From Aneurinibacillus thermoaerophilus (GTDB lineage Bacteria > Bacillota > Bacilli > Aneurinibacillales > Aneurinibacillaceae), in assembly GCF_900099925.1 (NCBI RefSeq), contig NZ_FNDE01000003.1, forward strand, positions 1 to 64,000: 64,000 bases of DNA, given 5' to 3'. Shown in pieces: positions 15,518 to 49,210 of the stretch. The notes below the pieces were generated by a model, which saw only the letters and a list, made by a program, of their open reading frames with translations, was not told the origin of the DNA and searched no databases. Numbering within the stretch: position 1 is the stretch's first letter; every line of letters begins with the position of its first letter. The position numbers and the translations under genes were made by a program.

Positions 15518-16399
15518 CTAACTATTCTGACTATTCTTCTTTTGCATATACTTTACGCCGCTCGCTTGATGACGAATAATGTCTTCTATTAAATCAGCCA
15601 GATACGCGCCCGCTTCCAAAGGTGGAAAACCACCCTTATGAATGTTAGAAATAACCGTTCGATCCGCTTCTACCGTTTTTTCGTTCGGGCGATATATCAT
15701 ATACGCGCTTAAACTTTCCGCTGTGGCAAGCCCTGGACGTTCGCCAATAAGGGATATAACGACATCGCAATCTACAATGGAAGCAATATGATCTTGCACC
15801 CAGACGCGCGCCCGTTTCACAAATAGCGGCTTGGCCATGCTCAAATTTTTTAGCGTAAGACCCTGTGTCAAAGATGCAAGCAAATCGCGGGCATTCGCTT
15901 CTACCGCGGAAGAGCTGAGACCATCGCAAACGAGAATCTGTACGTTTTTCCGCTTATCGCCGTTCTCTTCCAGCCAGCGGGCTGATTCATCAGACAACTT
16001 TCTTCCTTTATCCAAATCCATCAAATAAGTGGCCATATCTTCCGCACAAGTATGGAGGACAGGCAAATCAAGGGAAGCAAGAAACGAATCAGACACATCT
16101 TTCATGACTGCGTCCTGCGCCGCCGCATGATCGATACGAAATTGCAGGTAGTCTTTCGTCCGCATGCGCGTGCCAGCGCGACCAATGCCGATACGGGCCG
16201 GCGTCACCTGCTGCGCCCGTTCAATCGCGGCCCGATTGTGCGGGTGTTTTACCCCGATTTCTTTTTGCTCTGAAAAATAAATGGTCTCGGCATGGGTGAT
16301 TTCCTGCGACTCAGGCGCTTCCGCTCGTTCATCCTGAAGCTTTTTCGTCAATTCCCGCAGCACTTGTTCGACGACCTGTTCAATTTTTTCCTGATTCAT
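15518..16399 (-). CDS. eutC: EutC ethanolamine ammonia-lyase small subunit, second copy (293 aa)
   Basis: Small subunit of the adenosylcobalamin-dependent lyase that splits ethanolamine into acetaldehyde and ammonia. The EutC core begins near residue 65 (Pro-Ala-Arg-Ile-Gly-Ile-Gly-Arg-Ala-Gly-Thr-Arg) and contains Phe-Arg-x-Asp-His-Ala-Ala-Ala, Ser-Asp-Gly-Leu-Ser and Ile-Gly-Glu-Arg-Pro-Gly-Leu. The first 22 residues form an amphipathic helix (Ile-Glu-Gln-Val-Val-Glu-Gln-Val-Leu-Arg-Glu-Leu) joined by a variable linker, which fits a microcompartment encapsulation peptide. Start 16399 chosen for its GGGGTGAGG site; the ORF extends further into eutB but without a ribosome site. It follows the second eutB by 13 bp. 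Confidence 0.93.
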   Translation of the reverse strand: MNQEKIEQVVEQVLRELTKKLQDERAEAPESQEITHAETIYFSEQKEIGVKHPHNRAAIERAQQVTPARIGIGRAGTRMRTKDYLQFRIDHAAAQDAVMKDVSDSFLASLDLPVLHTCAEDMATYLMDLDKGRKLSDESARWLEENGDKRKNVQILVCDGLSSSAVEANARDLLASLTQGLTLKNLSMAKPLFVKRARVWVQDHIASIVDCDVVISLIGERPGLATAESLSAYMIYRPNEKTVEADRTVISNIHKGGFPPLEAGAYLADLIEDIIRHQASGVKYMQKKNSQNS

Positions 16400-16412
16400 A
16401 TCCTCACCCCGC

Positions 16413-17774
16413 CTAATCGAATATGGAAAGATCGCCCGCACGTTCGGTGAGCCTTCCATTTTCCATAATGCCCATCTTCTCAAGCCATTTTTCAAACTCT
16501 CGCAACGGACGCAAGCCTAGCATTTCCCGCAGGCTCGCATCATCGTGGTAGCTTGTATCCTGGTAATTTAACATCACATCGTCTCCGGCAGGCACCCCCA
16601 TATAAAAATTCGCGCCCGCCAAAGCGGTCAGCATACCAGCAATTTCCTGATCATTCTGGTCAGCATACATATGGTTCGTATACGTCGGAGCAATCCCCAT
16701 TGGCAAACCGTGCAATTTGCCCATAAACAAATCTTCCAGATCAGCGCGGATCATCTGGCGCCCATCATAAAGCGTCTCGGGGCCGATAAAGCCGGATACA
16801 TTGTTCACCATGAACGGTTGCCAGTTGCGGGCATAACCATACGTACGGGCTTCAAGCGTCTGCATGTCCACGCCGTGTGCAGCGTCCAGCGACACTTCCG
16901 AACCCTGCCCGGTTTCAAAATACATAACGTTCGGGCCTGCGGCTGTGCCAAGGCGACGCATCATAGCCAGCCCTTCATCAAGCAATTTCTTATCAACACC
17001 AAACGCTTCATTCGCCTTTTGCGTCCCCGCTAAACTTTGAAACATGAGTGCGATCGGGGCACCTTTTTCCAGCGCTTTCATCTGTGTTGTAATATGGGCC
17101 AGCACACAATTTTGCGTCGGAATCTCCCATTTCATTATAAAGTCATGTGACATGTGCAGCAGCCGCGATACTGACTCTACTGTATCTACATTGGGATTAA
17201 TCCCGATAACTGCATCTCCTGAGCCGTATGACAGACCTTCTTTAATCGAAAAAAGAATCCCTTCCGGTGAATCAGTCGGGTGGTTCGGTTGGCAACGAAA
17301 CGCCAGCCTTCCTTCTTCGCCAATAAGCGTATTACAGTGAGCGGTAGGGCGAATTTTCTGTGAGGCCATTACCAGGTCAATGCTTGACATGAGTTTGGCG
17401 ACCGCCGCAATCATTTCGCTCGTCAACCCACGACCTAAGCGCTGCAACTCGTGTGCCCCAGTCCTGTGAGACAATATATAATCCCGTAACTCTCCAACGC
17501 TCCAGTCTTTTATCTCGTTATAAATGGACAGGTTTATTCCGTCATAAATAACCCGCGTTACCTCATCTTTCTCATAAGGAATCACCGGATTTTCATAAAT
17601 ATCCGCAAGCCGCATTTCGCTAAGCACCACTTTGGCCGCCATCCGTTCGAGCGAAGACTCAGCCGCGATTTTTGCCATTTTGTCGCCGGACTTTTCCTCA
17701 CTTGCTTTTGCCAGCACTTCTTTTACGGACGAGAAAGAATAGCTCGTGTTTTTGATTACACACGAAAGTTTCAA
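16413..17774 (-). CDS. eutB: EutB ethanolamine ammonia-lyase large subunit, second copy (453 aa)
   Basis: TIM-barrel catalytic subunit that binds ethanolamine and, with EutC, the corrinoid cofactor. Family landmarks: Glu-Glu-Lys-Ser-Gly-Asp near residue 26-31, Leu-Thr-Ser-Glu-Met-Ile-Ala-Ala, Gln-Pro-Asn-His-Pro-Thr-Asp-Ser near 175, Gly-Asp-Ala-Val-Ile-Gly-Ile-Asn-Pro, Phe-Glu-Thr-Gly-Gln-Gly-Ser-Glu, and Asp-Asp-x-Met-Leu-Asn-Tyr-Gln. Length equals the usual 453. It is clearly diverged from the copy at 22913-24277 but keeps the conserved active-site segments, so it is expected to be active. The gene begins directly after the tailed shell protein (30 bp). Confidence 0.95.
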   Translation of the reverse strand: MKLSCVIKNTSYSFSSVKEVLAKASEEKSGDKMAKIAAESSLERMAAKVVLSEMRLADIYENPVIPYEKDEVTRVIYDGINLSIYNEIKDWSVGELRDYILSHRTGAHELQRLGRGLTSEMIAAVAKLMSSIDLVMASQKIRPTAHCNTLIGEEGRLAFRCQPNHPTDSPEGILFSIKEGLSYGSGDAVIGINPNVDTVESVSRLLHMSHDFIMKWEIPTQNCVLAHITTQMKALEKGAPIALMFQSLAGTQKANEAFGVDKKLLDEGLAMMRRLGTAAGPNVMYFETGQGSEVSLDAAHGVDMQTLEARTYGYARNWQPFMVNNVSGFIGPETLYDGRQMIRADLEDLFMGKLHGLPMGIAPTYTNHMYADQNDQEIAGMLTALAGANFYMGVPAGDDVMLNYQDTSYHDDASLREMLGLRPLREFEKWLEKMGIMENGRLTERAGDLSIFD

Positions 17775-18552: not shown

Positions 18553-19275
18553 TCACCCCTCATCCACTTGAATCGTAACGCCCCCTGCACGCGCTGCATC
18601 ACGAGCTAACGGTGTAATCACCGTGGACGGGGATACGTAAATCACACCTTCTTTCGCCTGCTGCACATCGCTGTGGGTCAGCACTTTCCCTTCAAATACT
18701 ACAGGGCGCAAACGCGGCATTCCTCCCTTTTCTGCTCTTTCTTCCATCCGTGCCTCCTCGTCAGCCAACGCCAGTACATCCGCAATAGAGCCAAGGGTAG
18801 CACCAAAGGAACGAAGCGTGTCTGTATAGGCGCGAATATGCTGTCTGTAGCGCTTGGCCGACTGGGAGAGCACCGCGTCTCCCGTTTTTGGATGAAGAAG
18901 CCATTTCAAGGAAACGCACGGGACAAGCAACGCAGGAATGCCCGCCAGCAACGCTTCCGCAAGCAACCGGCTTTCCACGGTTCCAGTAAGCCCTAACGCG
19001 CCCTGAACAATTAAATCTTGACTTGTCTCAAGAAATACCGTTTGCTTCACATCACGGTGCAAAGACACATGCTCGATTTCTTCCACCCGCGCATGATATA
19101 CATTCCATCCTGCCTGCAATTCTTTTTCAATAATATCAACGGCTTTCGCTTCCAGTTCGCCCGGATAGACGAGCAAAAGTCCAGGTTTGACCGGCCGCGT
19201 AGGTTCAGCGGCCGGATAGAGCCTGGCGAGCACCTCTTCAACGATGCGCTCAAGAATCGCTTTATCGGTAATCAT
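18553..19275 (-). CDS. Microcompartment-associated protein of unknown function, TIGR02536-like (240 aa)
   Basis: This type of protein occurs in Firmicute eut operons as 'ethanolamine utilization protein, putative'; I assign it from context and general resemblance. Residues 1-20 form an amphipathic helix (Ile-Leu-Glu-Arg-Ile-Val-Glu-Glu-Val-Leu-Ala-Arg-Leu) like the encapsulation peptides on EutC and Pdu enzymes, followed by a Pro-rich linker. The core has Rossmann-like strands (Gly-Leu-Leu-Leu-Val-Tyr-Pro-Gly and Gly-Ile-Pro-Ala-Leu-Leu-Val-Pro-Cys-Val-Ser), resembling a flavoprotein fold, and a C-terminal Thr-Val-Ile-Thr-Pro-Leu-Ala-Arg-Asp. It is probably a lumen protein. Start overlaps the eutM stop by one base. 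Confidence 0.75.
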   Translation of the reverse strand: MITDKAILERIVEEVLARLYPAAEPTRPVKPGLLLVYPGELEAKAVDIIEKELQAGWNVYHARVEEIEHVSLHRDVKQTVFLETSQDLIVQGALGLTGTVESRLLAEALLAGIPALLVPCVSLKWLLHPKTGDAVLSQSAKRYRQHIRAYTDTLRSFGATLGSIADVLALADEEARMEERAEKGGMPRLRPVVFEGKVLTHSDVQQAKEGVIYVSPSTVITPLARDAARAGGVTIQVDEG

Positions 19276-22912: not shown

Positions 22913-24277
22913 CTAACGTGCAAAAATCGTCGGATCGCCGGCCCGTTTGCTTAAGTTACCGCCTTCCGTAATTCCCATCTCTTCCAGCCAGGCTGCAAAC
23001 TTCGGCGCCGGCTTCTTGCCCATCGTCTGACGCAATGTCGCGATATCGTGATAGCTCATCGACTGGTAATTTAGCATACAGTCATCTCCCATTGGGGTGG
23101 CAATAATAAAGTTGACGCCGGCCGCCGTCAGCAGCACACCAAGTTCTTCCATGTCGTTCTGGTCAGCACGAATATGGTTGGTGTAACAAATATCTACCCC
23201 CATCGAAATGCCATGCATCTTGCCCATAAAATGATCTTCCAGCCCGGCACGAATGACCTGTTTACTGTCGTATAAATATTCCGGTCCGATAAAGCCGACA
23301 ACCGTGTTGACAATATACGGATCAAACTTTCGGGCAAAACCGTAGTTTCGCGCCTCCAGCGTCATTTGATCGATGCCGTGGTGCGCTTCCGCTGACAATT
23401 CCGAGCCTTGGCCTGTTTCAAAATACAGACGCTGCGGCCCCTGGCTCATCCCTTTTTCAGCGATCATTTGCTTCGCCTCTTCCAACATCGCGGCGGTAAT
23501 CCCGAAGGAACGGTTAGCCGCTTCCGTCCCAGCGATGCTTTGGAAAATCATATCGGCAGGCGCACCGCGTTCAATCGCTTTCATCTGAGTAGTAACATGG
23601 GCAAGCACACAGTTTTGTGTCGGAATTTTCCATTCTCTAATAAACTCATGTGTCACTTGCAGGAGCCGTTTTACACTGTCCACCGAATCGTCTACCGGAT
23701 TGATGCCGATAACTGCGTCGCCTACACCATAAGACAATCCTTCTTTCAGCGAAGCAAGAATACCGTCCACGCTATCGGTCGGATGATTCGGCTGCAGGCG
23801 GGACGCGAGCGTGCCTTTCTGTCCAATGGCGATATTGCAACGGGAAATCACCTCGATTTTATTCGCAGCGTGAATTAAATCGAGGTTGGACATTAGCTTT
23901 GCGGCCGCTGCGATCATTTCGCTTGTCAGCCCGCGGCTCAGCCGCTTCAATTCCCTGTCCCCTACCCGATCGTTCAAAATGTACTCCCGCAGTTTTGCCA
24001 CTGTCCAACCTTTAATGTCCTGAAAAATGGTCTCGTTGACCTGTTCATCAATGATGCGAGACACTTCATCTTCGTCCGGTGGAAGCAAAGGGTTGTAGCG
24101 AATATCCTCAAGCGTCAATCCGGCGAGCACCTGCTTGGCTGCGATGCGCTCCTGCACCGTTTCGGCGGCTAGGCCTGCAAGCCGGTCACCTGATTTCTCC
24201 TCATTTGCCTTGGCAAATACTTCTTTTAAATCTTTAAACTCATATACCTGGTTTTGCAGCGTCGTCTTCAACCTCAT
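22913..24277 (-). CDS. eutB: EutB ethanolamine ammonia-lyase large subunit, first copy (454 aa)
   Basis: Catalytic TIM-barrel subunit with all the landmarks seen in the second copy: Glu-Glu-Lys-Ser-Gly-Asp, Gly-Leu-Thr-Ser-Glu-Met-Ile-Ala-Ala, Gln-Pro-Asn-His-Pro-Thr-Asp-Ser, Val-Ile-Gly-Ile-Asn-Pro, Phe-Glu-Thr-Gly-Gln-Gly-Ser-Glu, Asp-Asp-Cys-Met-Leu-Asn-Tyr-Gln-Ser-Met-Ser-Tyr-His-Asp. Start 24277 is used because GGAAGGTG lies 6 bases upstream; the longer ORF overlaps eutA without a ribosome site. It directly follows eutA, whose product repairs the enzyme, and precedes its own eutC, the standard eutABC order. Confidence 0.95.
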   Translation of the reverse strand: MRLKTTLQNQVYEFKDLKEVFAKANEEKSGDRLAGLAAETVQERIAAKQVLAGLTLEDIRYNPLLPPDEDEVSRIIDEQVNETIFQDIKGWTVAKLREYILNDRVGDRELKRLSRGLTSEMIAAAAKLMSNLDLIHAANKIEVISRCNIAIGQKGTLASRLQPNHPTDSVDGILASLKEGLSYGVGDAVIGINPVDDSVDSVKRLLQVTHEFIREWKIPTQNCVLAHVTTQMKAIERGAPADMIFQSIAGTEAANRSFGITAAMLEEAKQMIAEKGMSQGPQRLYFETGQGSELSAEAHHGIDQMTLEARNYGFARKFDPYIVNTVVGFIGPEYLYDSKQVIRAGLEDHFMGKMHGISMGVDICYTNHIRADQNDMEELGVLLTAAGVNFIIATPMGDDCMLNYQSMSYHDIATLRQTMGKKPAPKFAAWLEEMGITEGGNLSKRAGDPTIFAR

Positions 24278-24294: not shown

Positions 24295-25746
24295 TCAAGA
24301 ATGGAACGCGAGCGTTTTGACAACGACAGGCACAACCTCTGATTGCAGCACCCGTCCGATATCAAGATAATCCCCGTTTTCCACATGTATCTGATCGATA
24401 CAAAGCACACTGCGCTCCGCTTTCATAGCCATGAGCGATTGCCCAAGCACTTTGGCCATATCGTTTTCCACGACAATGACAAGCGGCTGACCTTGATCCG
24501 GCTGCTTGCAGAATGCTTCCAGAATCGCGGCCGCTACTTCCTGCACCTCGTAAAACCTGAGCATCGGCACATCGGACAGATAGAGGGCGAAATTCCGTCC
24601 TTCCCTGTTCGGATCATACAAGGCAATCGCCTGCTCCACCGCCCGAAATATTTTCTCGCGCGTGCCGTTCGATTCATTTTCAAATGATAGACGGTAAACA
24701 GGTAAATTCTTAATCGGCAACGATTCCTTCTCGACCTGAATCGTTGCGCCGCTGATTTCTGTCGTCTGCGTTCCCGCGCCAAGTACGGTCGCCCGCACAG
24801 TCTCCTTAGGCTGAATCCATCTCCAGCGTGCAAGCGCCGGATGACGGCGAAGTTCTTCGGACAACTGTACGCCTAAATCGTTGTAGACAGGCATACCGGT
24901 TTCTTCCTCACGTTTTTCCAAATGGTATATGCACTCACCCACACCGCCTGAGAACATAATGTCTTCTACCGGAACATTCCAGTCCGGCGGGTGACCGAGC
25001 AGCAACGGCTCGTCTTCCAGCTCCACTTTTCCATCTAAAATCCGGCCGAGCGTGTCCGCCATCGCCACCGTCACTTCACGGATGGCCAAAGAGTCCGCCG
25101 CATCTCCCAGGGCCAGTTGAATTCCTTTTTGTGCGATCAACTTCTGTACAGGCGACGAAATCTTTTTTACCTGTCCATCCTCATATTCAATGAGCCGGCC
25201 ACCGATATGAAGCGTACACGTTCCTTTAAATATACCTGCCTGGTAAACGGCGATATTGGCTGTTCCGCCTCCAATATCAATATTGGCCACCGTTCTGCCT
25301 GTCACTTTCGAATATTCATAGGCTCCGGAACCTTTGGCCGCAATCATCCCTTCCAAATCTGGTCCTGCAGTGGCGACGAGAAACTCACCTGCCTCATCGG
25401 ACAAGCGGCGTACCATTTCTTCAGCATTTTCTTTGGTCGCTGTCTCGCCAGTAATAATCACCGCACCTGTCTGAATATCTTCCGCACGGATACCCGCTTT
25501 TGCATACTCCATGCGCACCAAGGAAAATACGGCGGGAATGTCAATCAAATAATCTGCGCTGAGCGGAGTACGGTAAATCGGGCTTTTATGGATAATTTCG
25601 GTGTCAATAATTTCAATGCGCGGCACCTGGCTGGCTCCAGCCGTGTTCATCAGAGAAAAGCGGCTAATCACCAATTTTGTGGTGCTGGTCCCAATGTCGA
25701 TACCTGCGCTAATAATCTGTTCAACTTCTCGCTCAACCCGGCGCAT
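24295..25746 (-). CDS. eutA: EutA ethanolamine ammonia-lyase reactivating factor (483 aa)
   Basis: Actin/Hsp70-fold ATPase that releases damaged cobalamin from inactivated EutBC. Phosphate-binding loops are visible: Gly-Ile-Asp-Ile-Gly-Thr-Ser-Thr-Thr-Lys near residues 15-24 and Asn-Ile-Asp-Ile-Gly-Gly-Gly-Thr-Ala-Asn near 155; a Phe-Ser-Gly-Gly-Val-Gly-Glu motif lies near 275. Start 25746 is chosen over an ORF start 21 codons earlier because GGGGGG(A) lies just upstream and because the longer form would run through the leader terminator. The gene is preceded by an ANTAR hairpin overlapping a strong terminator, so its expression should depend on EutV. Confidence 0.93.
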   Translation of the reverse strand: MRRVEREVEQIISAGIDIGTSTTKLVISRFSLMNTAGASQVPRIEIIDTEIIHKSPIYRTPLSADYLIDIPAVFSLVRMEYAKAGIRAEDIQTGAVIITGETATKENAEEMVRRLSDEAGEFLVATAGPDLEGMIAAKGSGAYEYSKVTGRTVANIDIGGGTANIAVYQAGIFKGTCTLHIGGRLIEYEDGQVKKISSPVQKLIAQKGIQLALGDAADSLAIREVTVAMADTLGRILDGKVELEDEPLLLGHPPDWNVPVEDIMFSGGVGECIYHLEKREEETGMPVYNDLGVQLSEELRRHPALARWRWIQPKETVRATVLGAGTQTTEISGATIQVEKESLPIKNLPVYRLSFENESNGTREKIFRAVEQAIALYDPNREGRNFALYLSDVPMLRFYEVQEVAAAILEAFCKQPDQGQPLVIVVENDMAKVLGQSLMAMKAERSVLCIDQIHVENGDYLDIGRVLQSEVVPVVVKTLAFHS

Positions 25747-25770: not shown

Positions 25771-25825
25771 AAAAAACGCCCTATACGACGGAATGTAGGG
25801 GTCCGTCACATAGGGCGCCTTTGCC
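25771..25825 (-). promoter_or_regulatory. ANTAR antitermination leader of eutA (hexaloop hairpin plus terminator)
   Basis: On the minus strand the leader has GGC-AAAGGC-GCC (25814-25825), a hairpin with a hexaloop with A at position 1 and G at position 4 as needed for ANTAR binding. Its 3' arm is shared with a very stable terminator (stem CGCCCTAT...ATAGGGCG with an inner CGG/CCG part, 25771-25817) ending in six T. Binding of EutV to the small hairpin should block the terminator. A second upstream hexaloop was not found. Confidence 0.75.
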
Positions 25826-25867
25826 TCTGTCTATTCTTTTTTTGTTTTATGAACCAAAACATTGTTG

Positions 25868-26461
25868 TTAAAGAAGCGAATGAATGTCAAGCGCACGGTT
25901 CTTTAAGACGTATTCCGCCACTTCGCCCATCGTTTTGCGCGTATTCATACAGTATGTACGCATCGTTTGATAGGCGCGTTCCTCGTTTAGTTGATAGACA
26001 TCCATCAGAATTCCTTTCGCCTTTTCCACCCGTTTGCGTATCTCCATTTTTTTCTCCATCTCTTTAATGTTGCCGAGGAGCGATTTCACATGCCGGGACT
26101 GGCCGATAGCAACCTCCACCGCCGGAATCAAATCTTTTTCGGTAATCGGTTTGACTAAATATCCGAAAATATGTGCTTCCTTCGCCTCCGCAATGAGCTC
26201 TTCTTCCGTATGCGCGGTCAGCAGAATCGTCGGAATATCAAATGAACGGTAAATAATACGGGCCGCCTTCAATCCATTCATCTTTGGCATTTTTACATCC
26301 ATGACGATTAAGTCAGGACGATGGCGGGCGGCAAGTTCAATCGCGGTTTCCCCATTATTTGCTTCCGCCACCACTTCATATCCAGCTTCCTGTAGCATTT
26401 CCTTAATATCCATGCGCAGGATAGACTCGTCGTCCACGACCATCAATCTGCCTTTACTCAC
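25868..26461 (-). CDS. eutV: EutV response regulator with ANTAR RNA-binding domain (197 aa)
   Basis: Receiver domain (residues 1-120) with acidic pair Asp10-Asp11, phospho-acceptor Asp55 in Val-Met-Asp-Val-Lys-Met-Pro, Thr/Ser in Leu-Leu-Thr-Ala and Lys in Val-Lys-Pro-Ile. A short coiled linker (Ile-Lys-Glu-Met-Glu-Lys-Lys-Met-Glu-Ile) leads to the C-terminal three-helix ANTAR domain (about 135-190: Lys-Gly-Ile-Leu-Met, Glu-Arg-Ala-Tyr-Gln-Thr-Met-Arg). When phosphorylated by EutW it dimerises, binds hexaloop hairpins in leader RNAs and prevents terminator formation. It follows eutW by 3 bp. Confidence 0.95.
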   Translation of the reverse strand: MSKGRLMVVDDESILRMDIKEMLQEAGYEVVAEANNGETAIELAARHRPDLIVMDVKMPKMNGLKAARIIYRSFDIPTILLTAHTEEELIAEAKEAHIFGYLVKPITEKDLIPAVEVAIGQSRHVKSLLGNIKEMEKKMEIRKRVEKAKGILMDVYQLNEERAYQTMRTYCMNTRKTMGEVAEYVLKNRALDIHSLL

Positions 26462-26464
26462 CCG

Positions 26465-27907
26465 TCACTCCCCCTGTTCTGCCGGAAAGGAGACGCTTGC
26501 TCGCGTGCCTCCCCCTTCATTTTGCATAATCTCAAATGCTCCACACAGGTCAAAGTGCGTTAAATTTCGCACAATTTCAAGCCCGAGCTGGTCGGTTGCT
26601 GACTGCGCTTCAAATCCTTTCCCATCGTCTTCTACACAAAGGCAGAGCTCATTTCCATGCTTATAAAAATGGATGCGAACAACGCCTGAGGAACGTCCCG
26701 CAAACCCGTGCTTTAAACTGTTCTGAACCAACTCTGTCAGGATCAGCGCAAGCGATACCGCCTGTTTGGACTGGAGAGCGATTTCCTCAATTTCCATGAC
26801 AACATCCACTTTGCATTCTTCAGACGCCATATTGTAAACGAGCATGCGCGCGATCTTTTCGATGACTTGGTTCATCGCTACCTGTTCGATTCCGTTGTAT
26901 GACAGTACCTCATGAACGGTTGCGATGCTAATAATCCGGTTCAAGCATTCCTGATACAGCCCCTTTGCTTCATCGGGAACTCCCCGTCTCATTTGCAGAC
27001 GCAACAGCCCGGCTACCGTCTGCAAATTGTTTTTCACCCGGTGGTGAATCTCCTGGATAACCGCTGATTTAACCATTAACTGGCGCTCCTTATCCCGTAA
27101 ATCGGTAATATCTCGCAAATAAAGAAGCAGGCGCCGTCTCTTATCTTTTTGCTGCAGGCAAATGCTGCGCAGAACGTACACCATGCCTTGGTCGTGTACC
27201 TCTCGCTGAATGACCCCGTCATGGAGATAATCGCTCTCAGCAATGAACGGAAAAATTTCGTCCACTTTTTTATCCGTGTAATTTTGTCTCGTGAGACCGC
27301 TGCGCGATTCGATCAGGCCGATCGCAAAATTGTTTGCGTACAGAATTGTCCCATCTTCGCGCAATAGAAGTAGCGCTTCTTCGATTACATCCGGAATCGA
27401 CTGTTCTTTAGAAATCAAATCCCAGAACGTGCGGCTGAATTCCTGCGTTGTTTCCGATAAAAGAGCCAATTCCTTTTCATGCTTTACCTGCAGTGTAATA
27501 TCCTGCTCCAAAATCAGCATACCGATCGTTTGCCCTTTGCCGTTCTTAATCGGTACCACATTTTGCTTAACGTGGTGCCCCTCCTGAGTCAACGCCCGGT
27601 TCATAATCGCGGGCTTTCCTGTCCGATAGGCACGAAACACACCAGGCTCGTACGATTCGAACACTTCTTTTCCCACAACGCTCTCCTTATACAATGAGTG
27701 CGTGGTTGTGGGAGCCGCTTCCGCCACCACAATGACAGCGCTCCGATCTTTCACCGGGCAGTCGATAAAAACGTTCGCTTGGGAAACATCCGCTATCATT
27801 TGTAGCGCTTCACTTTTTCCGATAATAATTCGAATATCTTCTTCGCTAAGAGGAGTGTACTGCTGGCATAAATGGTAGATTCGTTTTGCTTCTGCGACAT
27901 CAATCAT
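26465..27907 (-). CDS. eutW: EutW sensor histidine kinase (480 aa)
   Basis: Soluble kinase, no membrane spans. N-terminal sensor region (about 1-150; H_kinase_N/GAF-like, probable ethanolamine sensor), then a PAS domain (about 165-270) and a HisKA_2-type dimerisation segment with Glu-Ile-His288-His289-Arg-Val-Lys-Asn-Asn-Leu-Gln. A HATPase domain follows with Glu-Leu-Val-Gln-Asn-Ser-Leu-Lys-His and Asp-Asp-Gly-Lys-Gly-Phe. Start 27907 chosen for AAAGGAG upstream. The kinase phosphorylates EutV in response to ethanolamine (known for Enterococcus EutW). Its gene has its own ANTAR-controlled terminator upstream, giving positive feedback. Confidence 0.93.
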   Translation of the reverse strand: MIDVAEAKRIYHLCQQYTPLSEEDIRIIIGKSEALQMIADVSQANVFIDCPVKDRSAVIVVAEAAPTTTHSLYKESVVGKEVFESYEPGVFRAYRTGKPAIMNRALTQEGHHVKQNVVPIKNGKGQTIGMLILEQDITLQVKHEKELALLSETTQEFSRTFWDLISKEQSIPDVIEEALLLLREDGTILYANNFAIGLIESRSGLTRQNYTDKKVDEIFPFIAESDYLHDGVIQREVHDQGMVYVLRSICLQQKDKRRRLLLYLRDITDLRDKERQLMVKSAVIQEIHHRVKNNLQTVAGLLRLQMRRGVPDEAKGLYQECLNRIISIATVHEVLSYNGIEQVAMNQVIEKIARMLVYNMASEECKVDVVMEIEEIALQSKQAVSLALILTELVQNSLKHGFAGRSSGVVRIHFYKHGNELCLCVEDDGKGFEAQSATDQLGLEIVRNLTHFDLCGAFEIMQNEGGGTRASVSFPAEQGE

Positions 27908-27929
27908 ACTTGAAAGACTCCTTTTACGT

Positions 27930-27986
27930 AAAAAAGGCTCCTCCAACAACACGCACACTTCCTCATTGTTGATAGGCGCCTTTGCC
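27930..27986 (-). promoter_or_regulatory. ANTAR antitermination leader of eutW
   Basis: Minus strand: GGC-AAAGGC-GCC (27975-27986) with the same hexaloop as before eutA, overlapping a terminator (27930-27977) with paired CAACAA/TTGTTG and GGC/GCC parts and six T. An AU-rich long hairpin (27990-28037) stands directly upstream but has no hexaloop with A1/G4. The gene pair eutWV would therefore need its own product for full expression. Confidence 0.75.
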
Positions 27987-28044
27987 TGTCAGATATTCAT
28001 TTTATTATCTTAATGATAATAGAAATAAAATTATCTGTAAAGGG

Positions 28045-28545
28045 TTACATGTAAGAAATATTTTCTGATTTAGAATTCGCGCAATAATCTTTCATTTCTT
28101 CACGTGAATGGCACGAGATCAACGCTTTCATTTCCTCTAACCCTTCGTTCTTATACGCTGAAACGAACACAATTGGGCCATCCGGAATCGCACGCCGCAA
28201 TTGTCGCGCCGCCCGTTCTCTGTCTGCCTCCGGAGCGTCGGTTTTCGTTACTACCCCGATAGCAAGCTTCGGGATACCTGTTGCAAACCCGGGGGGAAAA
28301 ATGGTCTTTGGGTTCGTCGCATCCTGAATAAAAAGCACATGGGTAACTTCAAGCGCCGTTGCCATGATATTTTTGTAGAACAATGGGTTTTCGGTATATT
28401 CGCCCGGCGTATCTACGATCCAGTCCCGATAGATGAGCGATTGAGTTTTCACAGCGGGCACATCGCGTCCTAAGAGCGCATTGGTAAGCGTGGATTTGCC
28501 TGCCCCGATGGCACCAATCAGCATCGCGCGATGTTTTTTCTGCAT
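28045..28545 (-). CDS. eutP: EutP/PduV-type small GTPase-like protein (166 aa)
   Basis: Ras-like P-loop protein: Ala-Ile-Gly-Ala-Gly-Lys-Ser-Thr at about 12-19, a Val-Asp-Thr-Pro-Gly-Glu-Tyr switch near 45-51 and Thr-Lys-Thr-Asp near 116 (the guanine motif). Members of this family occur in eut and pdu operons; PduV is linked to compartment movement and Salmonella EutP was reported to have acetate kinase activity. Slightly longer than usual because of a polar C-terminal tail. It follows eutS by 16 bp and precedes the eutW leader. Confidence 0.9.
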   Translation of the reverse strand: MQKKHRAMLIGAIGAGKSTLTNALLGRDVPAVKTQSLIYRDWIVDTPGEYTENPLFYKNIMATALEVTHVLFIQDATNPKTIFPPGFATGIPKLAIGVVTKTDAPEADRERAARQLRRAIPDGPIVFVSAYKNEGLEEMKALISCHSREEMKDYCANSKSENISYM

Positions 28546-28561
28546 TTCCTTTCCTCCCTGA

Positions 28562-28903
28562 CTATGATTTCGTAATCATGGCCGGCGTATAACCGAGATT
28601 GTGCGCTAAGAATTCATTAATGCGCTGCATTGCGGTTTCCACTTCTGACACGCTGCCGACCAAGACGAGACTGCCGGTAAACCGGTCAAGGAAGCCGATC
28701 GTTACACTGGCCGCCTTCGTCGCCAAATCGCCGGCAATAATCACCGTCTCGCTCGGGGTCAGCGTCAGAATACCGATGGAACCCCCTTGTGGAATTCCCA
28801 GCTTGTCAAACATATCTTCATCCGGATTGGCGATTAAATGGCTTAATGTTACCTGTTTGCCCGGCACAAATTCCTGGATAAACCGCTTTTTCTCTTCTGC
28901 CAT
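28562..28903 (-). CDS. eutS: EutS circularly permuted BMC shell protein (113 aa)
   Basis: Hexameric shell protein with a permuted BMC fold; its hexamer is bent and is thought to form shell edges. The N-terminal [19 protein letters not shown] is characteristic, followed by [10 protein letters not shown] and a Gly-Phe-Leu-Asp-Arg-Phe-x-Gly-Ser-Leu-Val turn. Start 28903 (9 bases after AGGAGG) is preferred to an ATG two codons earlier. It is the first gene of the cluster, behind a sigma-A promoter and an ANTAR attenuator. Confidence 0.93.
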
Positions 28904-28927
28904 GCACATTTTCCTCCTCGCAAACGC

Positions 28928-28965
28928 AAAAAGCCCCTGCCAAATATGACAGTGGCTCCGTTGCC
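28928..28965 (-). promoter_or_regulatory. ANTAR antitermination leader of eutS
   Basis: Minus strand: GGC-AACGGA-GCC (28954-28965), hexaloop with A1 and G4, overlapping a terminator (28928-28957; GCC/GGC, CTG/CAG parts, five T). The hairpin starts only about 12 bases after the predicted transcription start, so there is no room for a second upstream hexaloop in this transcript. Confidence 0.7.
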
Positions 28966-28983
28966 GCACAATTTTTTCTATAT

Positions 28984-29011
28984 ATTATAGCATAGTGATA
29001 AATAAATACAA
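28984..29011 (-). promoter_or_regulatory. Sigma-A promoter of the eut cluster
   Basis: Minus strand: -35 TTGTAT (29006-29011), 16-bp spacer, -10 TATAAT (28984-28989). Transcription would begin near 28977, just before the ANTAR hairpin. Confidence 0.65.
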
Positions 29012-29063: not shown

Positions 29064-29276
29064 CTACCTTTCCAACCTCTCTTTCAACTTTTCCAGCTTG
29101 ACAAACGGGTTTTTTCTCCCTACTGGTTTCATTTTATGCCTTTTGCTGCACACATTGCACAAGAACCCAGCTACGTTTTTCTCTTCTTCTTTGTTTTCGG
29201 CGGCGCTGCGATAAACAGCATATACTCGTTCTTGAATCGGCTTACCGCACGCCATACAAGTCTCATCGCGGTTCAT
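29064..29276 (-). CDS. Small zinc-ribbon-like protein (70 aa)
   Basis: Start 29276 has AAAGGA 9 bases upstream; an in-frame extension to 29315 lacks one. Two Cys pairs (Cys-Met-Ala-Cys near the N-terminus and Cys-Asn-Val-Cys about residue 40) separated by about 32 residues fit a treble-clef or zinc-ribbon metal site. The C-terminus is Lys/Arg-rich (Lys-Pro-Val-Gly-Arg-Lys-Asn-Pro then a basic helix), suggesting RNA or protein binding. Stands upstream of the eut promoter on the same strand with only about 50 bp between, but there is no sign that it belongs to the eut system. Family unknown. Confidence 0.6.
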   Translation of the reverse strand: MNRDETCMACGKPIQERVYAVYRSAAENKEEEKNVAGFLCNVCSKRHKMKPVGRKNPFVKLEKLKERLER

Positions 29277-48948: not shown

Positions 48949-48995
48949 TATTTTTGTTTATGTAAATTCATAGAAAAAATCCTCATCATCATATA

Positions 48996-49183
48996 GATGA
49001 GGTAGAGGTCGCGGTTTTTATAAGTACGGCGGGAGAGACGCGGAGAACGTCTATGAATTCGTCGGAAAGGAAAAATCGCCGAAGTCTGTGTGCGTTCTCC
49101 GTGCGCGCGGGCTGGGGCTGTCACCGAACAGGGGCAGAACTGTCACGTTTGCTTTCTGAACGAACGTGATGCGCTATCTTCAT
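48996..49183 (+). promoter_or_regulatory. Lysine riboswitch (L box) aptamer
   Basis: The conserved blocks occur in the right order: AGAGGTCGCG at about 49004, GGAAAGG then TCGCCGAAG near 49060-49085, GGCTGGGGCTGTCA near 49110-49125, GGGCAGAACTGTCACG near 49131-49146, and a closing arm near 49174-49183. The five-stem aptamer binds L-lysine and, when occupied, allows the following terminator to form. It is linked to a lysine permease, a well known L-box target. Confidence 0.92.
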
Positions 49184-49210
49184 GGAAGGTATGATGCGGA
49201 TTTTACGTAA

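Follow-up and report, generated by a model that had tools for sequence, protein, structure and literature searches.

Three single-hexaloop leaders in the eut cluster of Aneurinibacillus thermoaerophilus as candidate targets of the ANTAR regulator EutV

A stretch of 64,000 nucleotides of Aneurinibacillus thermoaerophilus (contig NZ_FNDE01000003.1, hereafter the window; part of a genome of 3.66 Mb in 103 contigs) carries on its minus strand a cluster for ethanolamine utilization (eut) in the order eutS-eutP-leader-eutW-eutV-leader-eutA-eutB-eutC-eutL-eutE, followed by more microcompartment genes, a second eutB-eutC pair and eutH. The eutV gene, for a response regulator with a receiver and an ANTAR domain, adjoins eutW, the gene of the paired sensor kinase, and EutV is the sole match to PF03861 (ANTAR) in the genome. 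An earlier note, made from the sequence alone, had proposed three ANTAR-type switches in this cluster, and a scan located all of them on the minus strand ahead of eutS, eutW and eutA, with eutV encoded among them, between eutW and eutA. Each consists of a small hairpin of at least 3 bp with a six-base loop having A at position 1 and G at position 4 (A1/G4 hexaloop), with the letters AACGGA once (eutS) and AAAGGC twice (eutW and eutA), and in all three leaders the 3' arm of the hairpin lies within the 5' arm of an intrinsic terminator (Table 1). Only one such hairpin is present per leader, as had been remarked, and this proved to be a feature of the Bacillales-type leaders examined. Below, this hairpin is called P2, and P1 denotes the first hairpin of the dual-hairpin targets known for EutV. 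We consider it probable that EutV acts in antitermination through P2 alone, with an 11-nt box upstream of P2 assisting.

A loose scan of the 64 kb returned 9 sites with an A1/G4 hexaloop and a terminator-like fold, and 3 to 11 for each other pair of letters at positions 1 and 4 (15 pairs). As this combination is not rare on its own, the comparison with other genomes is decisive. Loci were collected by EutV or EutW searches of 61, 15, 398 and 345 genomes, plus one scan of named genomes (80 loci). On the Bacillales side, 64 loci were read by tblastn with the genes of the window, 12 of them from the named-genome scan and the remaining 52 from the other sources; among the 64, some have EutVW-like genes but no other eut gene, a few organisms occur twice, and L181 and L182 belong to the other clade. 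The sister set comprises 24 loci of the Lactobacillales/Clostridia/Desulfobacterota kind. Leaders were gathered on P2 and terminator alone, ignoring the upstream content, and P2 pairs 1-3 were required by the scan. The window and 54 loci contributed 97 rows to the Bacillales-type collection. For the P1 and fold counts the Bacillales-type set started at 99 rows and was reduced to 86 leaders by dropping sites weaker than -13 kcal/mol, L137 eutB and L163 eutM (judged coding or unrelated), L181 and L182 (sister clade), and identical upstream stretches. From the sister set, the rows of L198 and L199, where the scan was off the real P2, and a second register of L047 were dropped; L061 and L200 yielded no row in it, and L062 lies outside it.

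The three leaders recur in all four congeners whose cluster was read (L131-L134), and across the class the 3' arm and loop of P2 covary both with the P2 5' arm and with the 3' arm of the terminator; this recurrence and covariation raise the sites above chance. Covariance support in related genomes, the lack of which would have counted against the claim of the earlier note, is present for P2 and for the terminator pairing. Pair 3 of P2 is G-C in 35, A-U in 21 and G-U in 3 of 59 Bacillales-type leaders. On the terminator side (84 leaders), the 3' arm of the terminator takes loop positions 5 and 6 and the 3' arm of P2 as its partners, and changes in one strand are compensated in the other; position 6 is paired in 83/84 leaders, where shuffling leads one to expect 58, and exchanges between C-G (54), U-A (19) and A-U (6). 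Exchanging the 3' arms between leaders, with the best register sought anew each time, gave a score below the observed 13.6 in all 200 trials (mean 9.6, best 10.3). Loop position 4 is paired in the terminator in 84/84 leaders in the best-pairing register (G-C 57, G-U 27), a column without covariation of its own, since its letter never departs from G and is partnered by C or U throughout. In Enterococcus faecalis, EutV stacks this G on Tyr164 (PMC8934654). As G4 is paired in the terminator, termination and recognition by EutV would compete for it.

The search for the missing first hairpin, suggested with the proposal, found no P1 in the leaders of the window, and a short box instead at eutW and eutA. 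The score applied demands an A1/G4 hexaloop on a stem with one mismatch allowed, with a bar at 8. By this measure P1 is present in 23/26 sister-clade leaders (Lactobacillales/Clostridia type, with the gene order EutV-EutW; 5% in shuffles), in 0/17 leaders of the window's family and in 2/69 of the other Bacillales-type leaders, which have the order EutW-EutV (4% in shuffles); the three leaders of the window score 1 (eutA), 3 (eutS) and 1 (eutW). Folding of the 41 nt before P2 gave a mean z of -2.20 for the 26 sister-clade leaders versus 0.00 for the 86 Bacillales-type ones. The sister-clade P1 covaries clearly, with both sides changed in three of five pairs, and the method can therefore see P1 where it is present. 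Three sister-clade leaders lack P1 by score: L201 eutA and L202 eutA show a stem by eye whose loop starts with G, and L195 has a shorter stem. The absence of P1 is real and clade-wide. As a separate observation, L198 and L199 have ahead of eutA an intact P1 and a P2 loop with G, not A, at position 1 (GATGAA between AGC and GCT); a covariance model of the dual-hairpin type scores them at 33.5 and 34.7 bits.

From 58 nonredundant leaders outside the family of the window, which was held out, motif learning returned an 11-nt box, ACAAGTGAATA (written as a consensus, AMAAGTNNAYA), with a score of 231 versus 30-34 in four dinucleotide-shuffled sets. Its end lies 7-12 nt before the P2 loop in 53/58 leaders, and 8-11 nt before it in 44/58. 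The eutW and eutA leaders of the held-out family match the box (p 0.002 to 0.089 versus shuffles of the same sequence), and the eutS leaders of that family do not (p 0.18 to 0.70). RNAalifold predicts no pair within the box. At sites outside the eut clusters its two middle letters vary, leaving the core A-A-G-T-n-n-A-Y-A. A hairpin without an A1/G4 hexaloop precedes the box of the window's eutA leader, an insertion that is lacking in the congeners. Three other accounts of the box were set aside. Pairing with the downstream 90 nt was rejected, the longest run being 6.4 versus 6.1 in shuffles; a stop codon of the upstream gene fits the middle letters of the box in many leaders, but these letters are TC, CC, AC or GC elsewhere, so that this is not general; and a promoter is argued against by the position of the eutA box between eutV and eutA and by the promoter-like site of eutW, which is separate from the box.

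A covariance model of box plus P2 (R1) was built from 59 leaders with the window excluded. Run against the whole genome of the window (E 0.05), it returned two sites only: the eutW leader (27973-28006, 34.9 bits, E 9e-6) and the eutA leader (25812-25844, 33.2 bits, E 2e-5), so that with the window held out the box-plus-P2 architecture was recovered for eutW and eutA and not for eutS. Across the order, R1 matched in 8/8 genomes with EutV (E 1e-55) and in 0/7 others, one of which (G013) has some ANTAR protein. Across the class, 56/398 genomes were matched at E 0.003: 50 with EutW (E 1e-80), four more with an ANTAR protein and two with neither, the matches of these last two lying beside or inside DNA polymerase A genes (L283, L284), as expected at chance level. 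In sister-clade loci R1 scores at most 24.7 bits, and 14/15 Bacillales-type matches reach at least 30.7 (L138 has 20.9). An Rfam search of the window returned no ANTAR-like family, a lysine riboswitch being the sole match, and in the leader region only two weak, unrelated matches appeared (E 6.7 and 7.5). The claim of ANTAR-type antiterminators stands strongly before eutW and eutA, on the held-out scores and on the co-occurrence with EutW/ANTAR proteins, and moderately before eutS, where the hairpin is kept but neither a box nor a covariance-model match was found.

The regulator itself agrees with such a role. EutV matches 6wsh, the EutV of E. faecalis (organism from PMC8934654), at a phmmer E value of 4.9e-45, and the residues listed there as RNA contacts are kept (R142, K143, K147, Y164, R168, M172, N173, R175). 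Position 177 is T rather than R, and varies in the dual-hairpin clade too. Within positions 100-197, residue 121, outside the hexaloop contacts, alone passed the cut-off for residues that split the two clades. In a tree of EutV (82 rows), 23 rows with EutV-EutW order, from Lactobacillales, Clostridia and Desulfobacterales and with dual hairpins in their leaders, are parted by the drawn root from those with EutW-EutV order. The EutV of the window falls in a clade of mostly EutW-EutV order (node of 58 rows, support 97/93); the EutW-EutV side also includes three rows in which the order is reversed (L018, L164, L168) and, apart from the window, two that carry no order label. Basal on that side is L061 (Acidaminobacter, EutW-EutV order), which has a dual hairpin by eye and 22.9 bits with the dual-hairpin model. 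The root is a midpoint root and the branch of L061 is long; the simplest reading would be a single loss of P1 after the L061 split. The box may well be what P1 left behind, as its likeness to the sister-clade P1 consensus (ACAANGANGT) suggests, though G4 was not kept.

From these observations a mechanism can be proposed. Without EutV, the nascent RNA would fold the terminator, whose 5' arm would begin at the G4 of the hexaloop in the best-pairing register, and termination would use up the base that ANTAR proteins read. Phosphorylated EutV would hold P2 and keep its 3' arm and G4 from the terminator, and polymerase would then read into eutS-eutP, eutW-eutV and eutA-B-C onward; the ethanolamine signal would arrive through EutW. 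The box, at its near-fixed distance before P2, would help recruit EutV to the emerging transcript, the part that P1 plays in Enterococcus, so that at most sites of this EutV clade a recruitment hairpin would have been replaced by a box without conserved pairing, while eutS would do without the box too. We infer that ethanolamine would gate the entry of the cluster, its regulators and its catalytic genes, as the earlier note had pictured. A stronger version, in which P1 was lost, the stemless box recruits an EutV dimer in a sequence-specific manner and a lone 5'-terminal hexaloop suffices at eutS, is put forward tentatively, and we would rate it somewhat below even. If it is true, it contradicts the two-hexaloop rule and means that an ANTAR regulator has a second way of reading RNA.

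Several points weigh against P2-based antitermination assisted by the box. In E. faecalis, induction is abolished by deletion of P1 (PMC3369931), and the structural model of 2022 holds that antitermination needs both hexaloops, though each binds alone (PMC8934654); for this reason the Bacillales-type clade is a natural exception to test. Contact residues drift in this clade (168 is Q in 15/63 and 175 is Q in 21/63), and both positions are invariant in 23/23 sister-clade EutV proteins. Nor does folding always leave the box single-stranded: the probability of being unpaired averages 0.66 across 72 leaders and falls to 0.32 at the eutW box of the window, which can pair with sequence mostly upstream of the predicted start. 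Among genomes with EutW, 9/59 have no R1 match at E 0.003, and the leaders of the window are not the strongest of their kind, with others reaching 41.2 bits. The co-occurrence with EutW/ANTAR genes is partly circular, because several of these genomes also supplied leaders for training R1, and thus only the window and the absences are independent. Finally, the eutS leader has no box.

That last point raises the possibility that at eutS a plain attenuator or terminator yields the hexaloop as a by-product, and that EutV switches only eutW and eutA, which we hold to be conceivable but on the whole doubtful. The eutS leader has neither P1 nor box and was not among the R1 sites, and the U-run is degenerate in the relative L135 (GGGGCTTATC). 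Against a by-product stands the hairpin GGC-AAYGRA-GCC, which is kept in 7/7 eutS leaders compared, including the 5' arm GGC and loop positions A1-A2, which the terminator does not use. The sequence TRTGNTATAMT upstream of eutS is kept in six aligned leaders (L135 has TGGTATAAT); the two-hexamer promoter scan, which listed 7 promoter-like sites in the stretch versus 4.8 in shuffles, did not include this extended -10. It would place the eutS transcript start probably about 12 nt before the hexaloop, and with such a start there would be no room for P1 or a box. The promoter-like site of eutW, whose TTTAC and -10 region are recognisable in the congeners, would likewise start the predicted RNA close to its box.

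A box that makes no contact with EutV, and slows polymerase or binds a general elongation factor so as to give EutV time on P2 alone, is in our view unlikely. A sequence motif without conserved structure at a near-fixed distance from P2 is what it would lead one to expect, and E. faecalis EutV binds isolated P1 or P2 about equally in vitro (PMC8934654). However, box plus P2 tracks EutW/ANTAR genes and eut targets, the combination and not the box alone having been searched, and an element upstream of P2 could hardly pause polymerase between P2 and the U-run.

Still less probable are ordinary dual-hexaloop targets with a decayed P1, in which the box would be a hexaloop that has one A-U pair to close it and relies on EutV for its stability. 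The likeness of the box to the P1 consensus, already mentioned, is in keeping with this, as are A1/G4 six-mers in the boxes of the window (AATGAA and AAAGAA; AGTGAA elsewhere) at 18 and 17 nt before the P2 loop. The dual-hairpin covariance model, built from 21 sister-clade leaders, also gave 16.7 bits to the eutW leader of the window (E 0.06); it missed the eutA and eutS leaders. Among 35 other loci, some Bacillales-type leaders reached 16 to 26 bits (L171 25.7, L177 23.2, L028 22.4), and because these overlap the weaker sister-clade matches, the score parts the two kinds uncleanly. The search of PMC3369931 used a 10-bit cut-off on its own model and may for that reason list some Bacillales-type leaders. 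Nevertheless, position 4 of the putative loop is G in only 64%, sites outside the clusters read AAGTTCATA, AAGTCCATA and AAGTACATA, and six eutL leaders have C in place of the closing U. Moreover, RNAalifold leaves the box unpaired, the best P1 stem scores equal those of shuffles, and nothing comparable exists in the eutS leader. Simple intercistronic terminators without a regulator at all three sites are highly improbable given the conservation, the covariation, the co-occurrence with EutW/ANTAR and the recurrence before eutH and eutB elsewhere, even though A1/G4 hexaloops by terminator-like folds are about as frequent in the window as other loop letters.

Compared with the EutV/EutW system of E. 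faecalis (PMC3369931; PMC8934654), antitermination through P2 with the box shares a two-component pair with ANTAR output, several leaders per eut cluster (there preceding eutP, eutG, eutS and eutA), a P2 hexaloop with A1/G4 over an intrinsic terminator and conserved RNA-contact residues. It differs in having no P1, a box at eutW and eutA and neither at eutS, the gene order EutW-EutV and a separate EutV clade. The NasR-nasF and AmiR-amiE leaders, known to us by their description in PMC3369931, have in common ANTAR proteins, A1/G4 hexaloops and terminators, but combine dual hairpins with other regulators and other pathways. The single-hexaloop ANTAR sites of PMC8934654 (an extra hexaloop of EutX and mycobacterial ones) are alike in having one hexaloop; they were proposed without the time limit of a transcribing polymerase, whereas the lone hexaloop here lies in a transcription terminator. 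Neither a cobalamin riboswitch nor a B12-riboswitch RNA of the EutX kind was seen in the window. The rest of the genome has four cobalamin riboswitches. In the 460 nt downstream of them, one A1/G4 hairpin of at least 4 bp was seen after L291, and after none of the four were there two such hairpins, as an EutX-like RNA would have. In the open-access full-text literature, nothing recognisable on Bacillales eut leaders without P1, or on the box, was found.

With R1, 20 sites outside the fetched clusters were chosen, of which 13 precede eutH, 5 an eutB and 2 are the polymerase matches. An eutB that lies apart from the cluster in other genomes is preceded by a box-plus-P2 leader of its own. In the congeners G005 and G003, a box-plus-P2 leader with a terminator outside the eut cluster (L229:3226-3257 and L228:2943-2974) precedes the gene of a HAD phosphatase that is probably secreted and, being akin to phosphorylcholine phosphatase by sequence (4as2, E 1.5e-13), might set free ethanolamine or choline. 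For the phosphorylcholine-phosphatase-like gene in the genome of the window (G000:C58:47374), the 500 nt ahead of the match contain no leader of this type. At L230 (G014:C10), a leader-like element with the loop GAAGGC and a strong terminator lies 306 nt before the start codon of the phosphatase, perhaps a decayed target. Going by R1, eutH, eutB and, in two congeners, the phosphorylcholine-phosphatase-like gene are likely members of the regulon.

Table 1. Leader elements and adjoining genes of the eut cluster in the window
Feature	Coordinates	Strand	Evidence and remarks
eutS promoter, extended -10 TGCTATAAT	28984..28992	-	TRTGNTATAMT in 6 aligned leaders; predicted start near 28977
eutS leader P2-type hexaloop, GGC-AACGGA-GCC, loop 28962-28957	28954..28965	-	scan; kept in the window, four congeners (L131-L134), L135 and L016
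eutS leader intrinsic terminator, uses hexaloop 3' arm	28929..28959	-	-15.4 kcal/mol, T-run from 28933
eutS (microcompartment shell), first gene of the cluster	28562..28924	-	NCBIfam NF012012 over cut-off
eutP	28045..28545	-	TIGR02528 2.9e-33, below its cut-off
eutW promoter-like site, TTTACA-17-TATCAT	28013..28041	-	10/12 consensus matches
eutW leader box TAAAATGAATA, 10 nt before P2 loop	27994..28004	-	held-out motif score 5.3 bits, shuffle p 0.009
eutW leader P2 hexaloop, AGGC-AAAGGC-GCCT, loop 27983-27978	27974..27987	-	scan and covariance model
eutW leader intrinsic terminator, 5' arm from loop G4	27931..27980	-	-18.6 kcal/mol, T-run from 27936
EutW, sensor histidine kinase	26465..27907	-	GAF_PdtaS, HisKA_2, HATPase_c
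EutV, response regulator, receiver and ANTAR	25868..26461	-	Pfam Response_reg 1.2e-29, ANTAR 4.2e-16
eutA leader box AAAAAAGAATA, 9 nt before P2 loop	25832..25842	-	held-out motif score 5.7 bits, shuffle p 0.032
eutA leader P2 hexaloop, GGC-AAAGGC-GCC, loop 25822-25817	25814..25825	-	scan and covariance model
eutA leader intrinsic terminator	25772..25819	-	-27.2 kcal/mol, T-run from 25777
eutA (ammonia-lyase reactivating factor), first gene past the third switch	24295..25746	-	NF007992 1.5e-142, below its cut-off
eutB, ammonia-lyase large subunit, first copy	22913..24277	-	NF011649 3e-203

For eutW, the start on the open reading frame list, a GTG at 27958, falls within the terminator; a Shine-Dalgarno-like AAGGAG stands before the ATG at 27907. 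The second eutB-eutC pair, followed by eutH, lies in the same cluster as the first (15518-17678, minus strand), and both genes of the pair pass the NCBIfam cut-offs. A 240-residue protein of the microcompartment cluster (18553-19275, minus strand) has no Pfam match, and relatives carry it at 27-68% identity. Directly upstream of the eutS promoter, a 70-residue protein with paired CxxC motifs is encoded (29064-29276, minus strand), with a sub-threshold zinc-finger match only. The lysine riboswitch is at 48995-49184 (plus strand, 123 bits), and a plasmid search of the sequence matched nothing.

In the current model of ANTAR regulation one hexaloop recruits the protein and the other blocks the terminator, and a clade that keeps only the second allows this model to be tested by natural variation. 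The box-plus-P2 architecture explains why dual-hairpin searches could miss or underscore these targets, and it brings in an 11-nt element, the box.

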